In this document: in pieces, positions 61,937 through 63,978 of the stretch
Numbering within the stretch: the stretch's first letter is position 1
How the letters are laid out: every line of letters starts with the position of its first letter
Source: Stenotrophomonas ginsengisoli
GTDB lineage: Bacteria > Pseudomonadota > Gammaproteobacteria > Xanthomonadales > Xanthomonadaceae
DNA: 64,000 bases
NCBI RefSeq assembly: GCF_001431485.1
Contig: NZ_LDJM01000032.1
Span: 1-64,000 of the forward strand
Reading direction: 5' to 3'
Made by a program: the position numbers and the translations under genes
Notes under the pieces: generated by a model
Databases searched by the model: none
Told to the model about the DNA's origin: nothing
Seen by the model: the letters and a program-made list of their open reading frames with translations, nothing else

Positions 61937-62968
61937 TCAATTGATGCTGCACTGGCGCCAGCGCACCTGTTCCTGGGTGCCCACACGCGGATTGAGCTGC
62001 ACGCGTACCGTGCGCAATGACGGGTAGCGGTGCAGCACCGGGCAGATCAGCTCCATCGCCCGCACCTCGTCCACGTCGCGGTCCACGGTGACGGTGGTCT
62101 GGGTCATCCAGATGGCCGAATGCAGGCCCGCAGTGCTGGCCAGCAGGCGCGATACCTGCTGCTGGTAACGACGCAGCAGGGCCGGATCCGGGTTCTGTAC
62201 GCGGATATCGATTCCGTCGACCAGCCACTGTGAGGCATCCTCCTCAACGGCCAGCGCGTCAGGCAGGGTGGCAGGCGTCTTGGCTGCCTGCGCTGCCGGC
62301 TGCTGCGCGCTGCTGCCCTGCGCTGCGGCCGAGGGAGCTGCAGGGCGCTGGCCGGCAGTATCAGCAGCAGTGCCGGTCATGCTGTCAAGGCCGATGCCGG
62401 TCAGCAGGCCAATGGCCAGGCAGCCCAGTGCGGCAATGCCGGTGCGGCGGATGGTGGTGCGCTGCGCGTGCTGGCTGGCGTTGCTTTCCAGCTCCCCGGG
62501 CAGATAGGGATGCAGCAATGACCACAGGGCAGGGCCGTCGATGATCTCGATCCGGTGGCGCGCGGCCAGCTCTCGACCCTCCCGCGACACCGTGCCCTGG
62601 GTCAGCAACAATCCGCCATGGGCGCCTGCCAGGCGGATCTTGGTGCCCAGCTCGACCACGGCCGCTTCGCCAATGCGATAGGACAGGCCGTGCTTGCACG
62701 ACACCAGCCAGGGCTGCGCGTTGTGTTGCATCAACCAATCGGCACTGGGCTCGCCGGCGGTGTGCTCGCTGTCATCGATGACCTGCATGCCGCGCTTTTC
62801 GATCAAGGCGCGGCGCACGATATGGGCAAAATCACGCCAGTGCATATCGGCCAATGCAGACAGGCCGTGCTCACGGGCAATCCGTTGCCGGGCAGGCAGC
62901 CACAGCCAGGCGGCAAGCAAGGCCAGGCAGGCAGTGGCCACTACGAGGGCGATAAGCCAGGCAAGCAT
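61937..62968 (-). CDS. Membrane protein with an Mrr-like restriction-endonuclease fold
   Basis: A 343-residue protein. Two transmembrane segments (about 2-24 and 176-194) flank a cytosolic domain (about 40-160) that looks like the Mrr_cat fold: MHWRDFAHIVRRALIEKRG, Asp77, the WLVSCKHG strand with Lys92, and GRELAARHRIEIIDG. The usual (Q/E)xK reads SCK, so catalysis is uncertain. The C-terminal part (about 250-343) after an Ala/Gln-rich linker is likely periplasmic. The ATG at 62968 has GGAAC upstream; 24 codons of earlier frame are unsupported. Confidence 0.75.
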   Translation of the reverse strand: MLAWLIALVVATACLALLAAWLWLPARQRIAREHGLSALADMHWRDFAHIVRRALIEKRGMQVIDDSEHTAGEPSADWLMQHNAQPWLVSCKHGLSYRIGEAAVVELGTKIRLAGAHGGLLLTQGTVSREGRELAARHRIEIIDGPALWSLLHPYLPGELESNASQHAQRTTIRRTGIAALGCLAIGLLTGIGLDSMTGTAADTAGQRPAAPSAAAQGSSAQQPAAQAAKTPATLPDALAVEEDASQWLVDGIDIRVQNPDPALLRRYQQQVSRLLASTAGLHSAIWMTQTTVTVDRDVDEVRAMELICPVLHRYPSLRTVRVQLNPRVGTQEQVRWRQCSIN

Positions 62969-63010
62969 CCAGATCTGTTCCGTGATCGATGGCGAAGAGC
63001 CCGATTTTAG

Positions 63011-63039
63011 CCTGTCCCGGGCCGGCTGGGTGACAGGCA
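63011..63039 (-). other. Inverted repeat before the Mrr-like gene
   Basis: On the minus strand GCCTGTC (63033-63039) and GACAGGC (63011-63017... read as its complement) pair around a GC-rich loop. It directly follows the T run of the hairpin RNA candidate and lies in the leader of the Mrr-like gene. Role unknown. Confidence 0.35.
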
Positions 63040-63108
63040 AAAAAAACCGCCACTCCTGCGTGCCATGAGGGGAGGGGAGCTATGGCACGAGGTACTGCGT
63101 GGCGGTTT
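63037..63108 (-). ncRNA. Candidate C-rich hairpin small RNA (or extended terminator)
   Basis: On the minus strand a compact structure ends in eight T (63046-63039). Outer arms AAACCGCCAC and GTGGCGGTTT (63108-63099 with 63053-63044) and inner arms CGTGCCAT and ATGGCACG (63089-63082 with 63066-63059) are perfect, separated by internal loops that may add CCT/AGG pairs. The 15-base top loop is AGCTCCCCTCCCCTC. A promoter-like TTGCAA-17-GACAAT (63141-63136 and 63118-63113) would start RNA at the foot of the stem. The alternative is a long terminator of the phasin gene, whose stop is 43 bases upstream. Confidence 0.55.
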
Positions 63109-63112
63109 CCGG

Positions 63113-63141
63113 ATTGTCATCCATTCATTGCTGCTTTGCAA
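63113..63141 (-). promoter_or_regulatory. Candidate promoter of the hairpin RNA
   Basis: TTGCAA (63136-63141) and, on the minus strand, GACAAT (63118-63113) with a 17-base spacer; each matches the sigma70 consensus at four of six positions. Confidence 0.45.
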
Positions 63142-63151
63142 CAAATGACCG

Positions 63152-63634
63152 TCAGGGCAGCGGCGGCTTCGGGCTGGAGACCTCGACGGTATGGCTCGGG
63201 GTAGCCACCGGGCGGGCTTCCAGCTGGCCGATACGCTGGCGCAGCGCGGCAATCTCGGCGTGCAGCGCGGTCACTTCGTCGGCCGTGGGGACCTTGAGCC
63301 GGCGCAGGATCGACTGCACTTGATCATCCATGGCGTGCTCCACCTTGTCCCAGGTGCGTGCGGTGCGTTCGCGGGCCTGGCCCAGGCCGGCGGCCAGGTT
63401 GTCCTGCAGGGTGGAGGCATTGTCGGCAGCGGATTTTCCGCGTTGCTCGTAGGCCTGGCCATCGCGCACCAGGCTGTCGAACAGGCGGCTGCCTTCGCTC
63501 TGGGCACGGTTGAATGCCCCCAGTCCGGCCAGCCAGACCTGGTGGGCCGAATCGCTCAGGCGCTGGGAGAAACGATCATTGCCGCTTGATTCGTGCTCGT
63601 GGCCCGGCGGCGGTGTGTGCGTGGAGTGGGTCAT
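63152..63634 (-). CDS. Phasin family protein (PHA granule-associated)
   Basis: A 160-residue protein with the phasin core: HQVWLAGLGAFNRAQSEGSRLFDSLVRDG (about 32-60), then an amphipathic helix and a C-terminal heptad region (EVTALHAEIAALRQRIGQLEAR). Such proteins coat polyhydroxyalkanoate granules and adjust their size. The next upstream gene is also of the PHA system. No polymerase gene is in the window. Confidence 0.85.
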   Translation of the reverse strand: MTHSTHTPPPGHEHESSGNDRFSQRLSDSAHQVWLAGLGAFNRAQSEGSRLFDSLVRDGQAYEQRGKSAADNASTLQDNLAAGLGQARERTARTWDKVEHAMDDQVQSILRRLKVPTADEVTALHAEIAALRQRIGQLEARPVATPSHTVEVSSPKPPLP

Positions 63635-63708: not shown

Positions 63709-63978
63709 TCAGCCCAGGCGCTCGCCGAGTACGCGCTGGATTTCCTCTTCGACCATCGATTGCATCATCGAATAGGGAAACCCCAGCTGGGCGGTGACCC
63801 GCACCTGGCCCGGCAGCAGGCTGATCCGCCCATCCACACCGCTGCGTGCAAATACCAGGGCGTCACCGTCCCAGTGGTTGATGACCTGGAAACGTTCGCT
63901 CAGTTTTTCAGCAATGGCCTGTACGACGTTGCGGACGGCACCGGCATCCAGGCCGTGCGGGTGGGAAATATCGATCAT
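63709..63978 (-). CDS. Polyhydroxyalkanoic acid system family protein
   Basis: An 89-residue protein matching PF09650-type small proteins of PHA gene regions: IDISHPHGLDAGAV at the start and RISLLPGQVRVTAQLGFPYSMM in the middle. The precise role is unknown. It precedes the phasin gene by 74 bases in the same direction, so both are likely co-expressed. Only 22 bases remain to the window edge. Confidence 0.8.
   Translation of the reverse strand: MIDISHPHGLDAGAVRNVVQAIAEKLSERFQVINHWDGDALVFARSGVDGRISLLPGQVRVTAQLGFPYSMMQSMVEEEIQRVLGERLG

Follow-up and report, generated by a model that had tools for sequence, protein, structure and literature searches.

A divergent ortholog of the Xanthomonas small RNA sX5 beside a phasin gene of Stenotrophomonas ginsengisoli, with a predicted PhaR operator over its -35 box

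A hairpin next to a phasin gene of Stenotrophomonas ginsengisoli is, judged by its sequence, a divergent copy and the Stenotrophomonas ortholog of the Xanthomonas small RNA sX5 (RF02224). It lies in a stretch of 64,000 nucleotides (contig NZ_LDJM01000032.1, positions 1 to 64,000), which we call the window. We consider it rather probable that this ortholog is a small RNA gene of the PHA storage regulon, which would be repressed by PhaR and induced by PHA, whose anti-Shine-Dalgarno loop would pair with mRNAs and whose hairpin would also end the phasin transcript. The hairpin, its covariation, the conservation of the loop, the linkage to the phasin gene, the operator and the counterpart of the operator at phaZ are read from sequences; from them we infer transcription in S. 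ginsengisoli, binding of PhaR, induction by PHA, phasin termination and mRNA pairing. The new element is the PhaR-type operator over the sX5 -35 box, together with its phaZ counterpart. The original prediction, which had proposed a small RNA at this place, missed both the sX5 identity and this operator. The features of the locus are as follows.

63039..63107, minus strand: sX5-type small RNA, predicted at about 69 nt, a hairpin with a C-rich loop and a U-run (sequence, fold, sub-cut-off Rfam sX5 match, model R1)
63108-63099 and 63053-63044, minus strand: outer stem of 10 bp, arms AAACCGCCAC and GTGGCGGTTT (read in the sequence)
63089-63082 and 63066-63059, minus strand: inner stem of 8 bp, arms CGTGCCAT and ATGGCACG (read in the sequence)
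63081-63067, minus strand: loop AGCTCCCCTCCCCTC, 15 bases with two CCCC runs, anti-Shine-Dalgarno-like (read in the sequence)
63046-63039, minus strand: run of eight T, three of them inside the outer stem (read in the sequence)
63113..63118, minus strand: -10 box GACAAT, in relatives also GAGAAT, AAGAAT or GAAAAT (read by eye)
63136..63141, minus strand: -35 box TTGCAA (sequence; conserved in relatives)
63129..63143, minus strand: predicted operator of PhaR, the palindrome TGTTGCAAAGCAGCA, which covers the -35 box (exact match to TGYTGCNNNGCARCA)
63152..63634, minus strand: phasin gene (PF05597 / TIGR01837), same-strand upstream neighbour of the hairpin
63709..63978, minus strand: gene for a putative polyhydroxyalkanoic acid system protein (PF09650 / TIGR02610), upstream of the hairpin
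61937..63010, minus strand: Mrr_cat-domain ORF (PF04471), conserved neighbour downstream of the hairpin, precise start uncertain

The genome of S. ginsengisoli amounts to 3.37 Mb in 99 contigs. The two stems of 10 and 8 bp, the 15-base double-CCCC loop and the eight T had all been described before, and each of them can be read in the sequence and is conserved. Folding of positions 63037-63110 yields -31.5 kcal/mol (z -4.1), a value that 0 of 200 shuffles equalled, and in the close relative L003 the fold reaches only z -1.6 (12 of 200 shuffles equally low). A terminator scan of the hairpin, which demands a loop of 8 or less where this one has 15, reported none; on its sequence the sX5-type hairpin is likely to be the terminator of the phasin gene as well. 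A 141-base query found BLAST matches in 28 of 91 genomes of the genus, that of the window included, and a phasin gene is present in all 28 loci.

The assignment to sX5 rests on several lines. At the gathering level Rfam gives nothing in the window, and a permissive scan of 401 bases gives sX5 (E 0.033) with each loop base aligned to its counterpart, so that the Rfam search supplied a family name for the predicted RNA at a score, 20.3 bits, that lies below the gathering cut-off of 50 bits. A search of 395 family genomes with RF02224 matched 225, of which 152 were above the cut-off, some of these belonging to the genus of the window; under the stricter filters of that search the genome of the window itself gave no match. 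In the best 30 of the 225 loci, which come from two genera, a phasin gene lies upstream and an Mrr-like ORF downstream, as in the window. The hairpin of the window also has the loop UCCCCUCCCCUCA and the common stem design of sX5, and a single covariance model, R1, finds both, whereas the copy in the window differs in a shorter and different stem (AAACCGCCAC). The Rfam model itself has 49 positions, begins within the hairpin and, of the long outer stem, appears to omit the 5′ arm. At the X. euvesicatoria locus (L047) the fold reaches z -4.2 with that arm as against z +0.5 for the 49 nt alone, and the omission is perhaps why divergent copies, that of the window included, fall below the RF02224 cut-off. 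The Mrr_cat-domain ORF, restriction-like, follows sX5 in most loci. One record, JAHREJ010000031.1 (L151), is titled Bacillus subtilis SK7B5 and holds a Xanthomonadaceae locus, and must be mislabelled or contaminated.

According to PMC4652430, sX5 is a non-coding RNA of Xanthomonas that was found in all X. campestris genomes studied there and was transcribed in X. euvesicatoria and X. campestris. The same source gives it as hrpG-dependent in X. euvesicatoria and not in X. campestris pv. raphani, for which there were only three reads. So low a number of reads would be in keeping with repression of the promoter in ordinary medium.

Is the hairpin maintained as an RNA? We obtained it from 151 of 152 loci and built an alignment (A1) of the 61 hairpins that differ by more than three bases, including the one in the window. 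The named structure of 17 pairs is paired in 90.5% of the cells of A1, and sliding the partner by 1-3 columns reduces pairing to 26-42%. Both sides of a pair have changed in 44 cells, compared with a shuffled mean of 14.8 (0 of 500 shuffles as high), and eight pairs carry such changes, compared with 4.1 (2 of 500); further pair types were no commoner than in shuffles (343 of 500 as high). RNAalifold recovered from A1 a core of the same two helices with 13 pairs, seven of them with compensatory change. The 5′ arms of the window (L002) and of L003 stand one column off in A1, which counts against the structure. Loop constancy inside A1 holds by construction, since the alignment was anchored on CCCTCCCC, and a count that started from phasin genes is independent of this anchor: besides the window, which has the motif, 46 genomes with phasin were examined, and 37 of them carry it no more than 300 nt from the phasin stop; of the nine without it there, one (G137) has a variant loop. 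The comparison across Xanthomonadaceae to which the original prediction had looked showed a covarying stem as well as a kept loop.

Model R1, built from the 61 rows of A1, one of which is the hairpin of the window, matches 39 of 60 family genomes and 36 of 53 genera; in the genome of the window the match spans 63039-63115 with 47.2 bits (E 6.7e-8, whole genome). Its query contains no phasin sequence, and in 38 of the 39 best matches the hairpin follows an above-cut-off phasin match on the same strand, at a distance of 75-323 bp. The exception is a weak match of 31.9 bits, in a genome without any phasin match. Conversely, nine of the 60 genomes have an above-cut-off phasin and no R1 match. At two of 40 further sX5 loci (L173 and L191) a gene for a PHA-system protein, and no phasin match, lies upstream of the hairpin. 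Comparative sequence evidence therefore gives good support to the hairpin being an RNA under selection, with a covarying stem.

The promoter places the predicted start of this RNA near 63107, at a length of about 69 nt. The TTGCAA and GACAAT boxes, 17 nt apart, are present as had been claimed; they agree with the consensus at only 4 of 6 positions each, and a sigma-70 scan that demands 9 of 12 reported no promoter here. It is their conservation in relatives that raises them above chance. The palindrome TGTTGCAAAGCAGCA over the -35 box fits, on the opposite strand, TG[N]TGC[N]3GCAA, which is the motif given in PMC3206438 for the footprint of PhbF, the PhaR homolog of Herbaspirillum, and it differs at one position in 17 from the PhaR palindrome of Ralstonia eutropha (PMC12849132). 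At the best 30 RF02224 loci, which were picked without regard to the operator, TGYTGCNNNGCARCA is exact in 30. To widen genus coverage 40 further sX5 loci were taken from the RF02224 matches; both phasin and loop could be located in 37. Of these, 23 have TGYTGC-N3-GCA at 65-73 nt ahead of the loop and 14 lack it. Outside that count, L173 and L191 each have TGTTGC-N3-GCA before the hairpin, and L184 combines a degenerate loop with a one-mismatch operator site. Another 54 loci had been fetched with most of the operator in the search pattern and are no evidence of operator conservation, and the 28 BLAST-matched loci of the genus are partly biased in the same direction. One clade retains the operator block at a distance of 65-74 nt ahead of the loop, together with a -10 box read by eye. 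Covarying stem, kept C-rich loop, fixed-distance promoter block and sX5 orthology together give good support to the proposal of a conserved small RNA gene with its own promoter.

What does the palindrome bind? The genome of the window has a phaR gene (TIGR01848, 170 bits) beside an acetoacetyl-CoA reductase gene, together with a class III phaC and phaZ. The PhaR domain PF07879 occurs in 58 of 60 family genomes, so that the presence of PhaR alone cannot separate genomes with sX5 from those without it. A genome-wide search for the full palindrome TGYTGCNNNGCARCA gave 15 sites. Two of them, at the sX5 promoter and before a methyltransferase gene, are clear of ORFs of 90 aa or more; among the 13 that overlap such ORFs is the phaZ site, which starts 36 nt ahead of what is probably the true start of phaZ, so that three sites look non-coding. 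Among the best 30 phaZ loci (47 of the 60 genomes searched had a phaZ match), 28 have the palindrome upstream of phaZ with at most one mismatch, 15 of them exactly, compared with 0.2 expected from the rate elsewhere in the same loci. In X. oryzae, phaZ was the most affected PHA gene tested in a phaR mutant, being 13.9- and 65.8-fold up (PMC6304360). This derepression and the recurrence of the site at phaZ make the palindrome very probably the PhaR operator of Xanthomonadaceae. In Sinorhizobium meliloti the promoters of mmgR and phaZ are bound by PhaR through such palindromes, and binding is lost when these are changed (PMC12542648); a point against simple repression is that PhaR is able to activate as well (PMC12849132). 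The sX5-type RNA, with a PhaR-type palindrome in its promoter that points to the PhaR regulon, is thus probably PhaR-controlled, like the unrelated rhizobial small RNA MmgR.

Phasins are classic PhaR targets in other bacteria. Here, none of the 38 loci with a phasin match has such an operator within 420 nt upstream of the match. This is one of the points in favour of a different explanation, namely that the small RNA is real and the palindrome serves another regulator or is mere -35 context, outside the PHA regulon. The same 15-mer occurs before the methyltransferase gene, which has no evident PHA link, and sX5 is reported to depend on hrpG in X. euvesicatoria (PMC4652430). Against it stand the palindrome at phaZ in 28 of 30 genomes, the repression of Xanthomonas phaZ by PhaR (PMC6304360), and the fit of the site to the Herbaspirillum motif (PMC3206438) and, with one mismatch, to the R. 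eutropha one (PMC12849132). We judge this explanation to be distinctly unlikely, and PhaR to be the better candidate.

Looser searches around the PHA genes gave a mixed picture. The pattern TGNTGCNNNGCAA was uninformative, with 146 sites in the genome, and was replaced by the full palindrome. Mismatch-tolerant sites were not above chance near phaR (13, where 8.45 were expected and 18 of 200 shuffles reached that number) or around the sX5 locus (7 against 5.78). The shorter core exceeded chance around phaC (26 against 13.9) and phaZ (16 against 8.9); despite this excess no clear promoter site could be read in the surroundings of phaC. As separate observations, inspection by eye showed short inverted repeats (GAGC...GCTC, for example) immediately ahead of the start codon of several phaR genes (L296-L324). 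The second exact TGTTGCAAAGCAGCA of the genome (L100; contig C12, 32985-32999), the one before the methyltransferase gene, is intergenic and has a TGACATATAGCTATA repeat nearby.

The distribution of the operator is much narrower than that of the hairpin. It is found in 10 of the 37 hairpin loci of the phasin-first set, or 11 of 38 with the window, and a single branch (support 99/98) of a PhaZ tree of 30 genomes separates these 11 from all the others, which include genomes without the hairpin or without an examined phasin locus. In the other 27 of the 37 loci the loop follows the phasin stop at 32-187 nt, with a median of 69. Outside the operator clade, in the genera sampled, the hairpin thus looks by its sequence context like a phasin terminator or a 3′-UTR RNA. 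The original prediction had offered this as its alternative, which is right in part, for those genera.

Taken for the window as well, that alternative would make the hairpin only the intrinsic terminator of phasin or a stable 3′-UTR piece of its mRNA, with an incidental promoter match. The 27 loci that lack the operator speak for it, as do the U-run at the end of the hairpin and the silence of the sigma-70 scan. Yet a terminator needs no fixed loop, and CCCTCCCC is kept in 37 of 46 phasin genomes; the operator block is held at 65-74 nt from the loop in one clade, with its -10 box read by eye; and the Xanthomonas ortholog sX5 is a reported non-coding RNA (PMC4652430). A role as terminator only is, in our estimation, unlikely. 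For the small RNA, the simplest story would start from a terminator hairpin whose loop was already of use and to which a promoter under PhaR control was added a single time; an alternative would be that this promoter was lost elsewhere.

A model of how the small RNA might work can be drawn from these elements. PhaR bound to the palindrome over the -35 box would block the sX5 promoter. PHA granules are reported to draw PhaR away in other bacteria. Once granules form, therefore, PhaR would leave the operator and the sX5 RNA would be made, as would PhaZ. The CU-rich, anti-Shine-Dalgarno-like loop (CUCCCCUCCCCU) may then pair with G-rich ribosome-binding sites and lower translation of the target mRNAs, and the same hairpin would end the phasin transcript. 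That sX5 is made on PHA accumulation and represses mRNAs with G-rich ribosome-binding sites is proposed by analogy with MmgR and sX13.

Searches for targets were limited in extent. Against stretches at phaR, phaZ and phasin, in 30 loci each, the loop had pairing energies no better than background (mean z +1.0, +0.1 and -0.2). In this comparison the phasin stretch was positioned by the domain match, so that the ribosome-binding site may lie outside it, and for two phaR loci near a contig end (L301 and L318) the stretch was misplaced. Genome-wide, GGGGAGGG-N{2,12}-ATG occurs at 26 sites against 7 for a reversed-pattern control. One of the 26 is the antisense of the hairpin itself and few give plausible starts, and in a limited search by eye no PHA gene was recognised among them. 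The lack of a conserved mRNA target in these searches would agree with a C-rich loop that binds a protein or another G-rich RNA, as a sponge or kissing loop, instead of the ribosome-binding sites of mRNAs. This seems to us improbable: sX13 has CCCC loops and acts as a repressor of mRNAs that carry G-rich motifs close to the start (PMC3771888), MmgR carries an anti-Shine-Dalgarno loop motif, though PMC7143759 gives no direct target known at the time, and the limited extent of our own searches weakens what their outcome says. Pairing with mRNAs remains the reading that we prefer.

Both comparison systems need some care. sX13 is a small RNA of Xanthomonadaceae with three stem-loops and C-rich (CCCC) loops, encoded downstream of polA (PMC3771888). 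The original prediction was right to take from it the idea of a C-rich loop, and as far as we compared them this loop is all that the two RNAs share; as a family, sX13 was rejected, given one hairpin beside phasin in the window and three stem-loops at polA (PMC3771888). MmgR of S. meliloti is closer in kind: PMC8401924 describes a 77-nt small RNA with an anti-Shine-Dalgarno loop motif that is repressed by PhaR (AniA) and lowers phasin protein output, an effect that is worded differently in PMC7143759, where no direct target is known. Its size, its loop motif and its phasin tie resemble those of the window RNA, and the PhaR (AniA) site and repression are those of MmgR (PMC8401924, PMC7143759, PMC12542648). 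Unlike the window RNA, MmgR has three stem-loops, depends on Hfq, is also under NtrC and is alphaproteobacterial. Membership in the MmgR (alpha-r8) family, as defined in PMC7143759, was considered and set aside, because the window has one long interrupted hairpin instead of three stem-loops; SuhB, a family that MmgR partly resembles, gave no match up to E 10 in an Rfam scan of the locus. We liken the two in their working, as a hypothesis, and not as members of one family. In the same manner, the promoters of PhaR-controlled phasin and phaZ genes share with sX5 a palindrome with a TGC-N3-GCA core near the promoter boxes (PMC3206438, PMC12849132, PMC12542648), and the difference from the phasin promoters is that the operator predicted here would serve a small RNA gene located between phasin and the adjoining gene, instead of phasin itself.

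Our search of the literature on sX5, on phasin with small RNAs and on PhaR with Xanthomonas found no link between sX5 and PHA; the original description (10.1093/nar/gkr904) lay outside this search. The words sX5 and Xanthomonas are also absent from the main text of a review of post-transcriptional PHA control (PMC8401924). The literature searched otherwise lists sX5 among the small RNAs of Xanthomonas and ascribes to it neither a role nor a link to PHA. Its connection with phasin and with PhaR supplies a signal, stored carbon, as well as a repressor and a testable circuit. We would further suggest, tentatively and as a possibility somewhat short of even, that PhaR took over a small RNA with an anti-Shine-Dalgarno loop twice independently, MmgR in alphaproteobacteria and sX5 in Xanthomonadaceae, the latter arising from a phasin terminator whose promoter was gained once in the ancestor of Xanthomonas and Stenotrophomonas. 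If true, the circuit would be a second, unrelated case of a small RNA controlled by PhaR, would illustrate how a terminator hairpin can come to have a regulated promoter of its own, and would tie a small RNA reported as hrpG-dependent in one plant pathogen to carbon storage.
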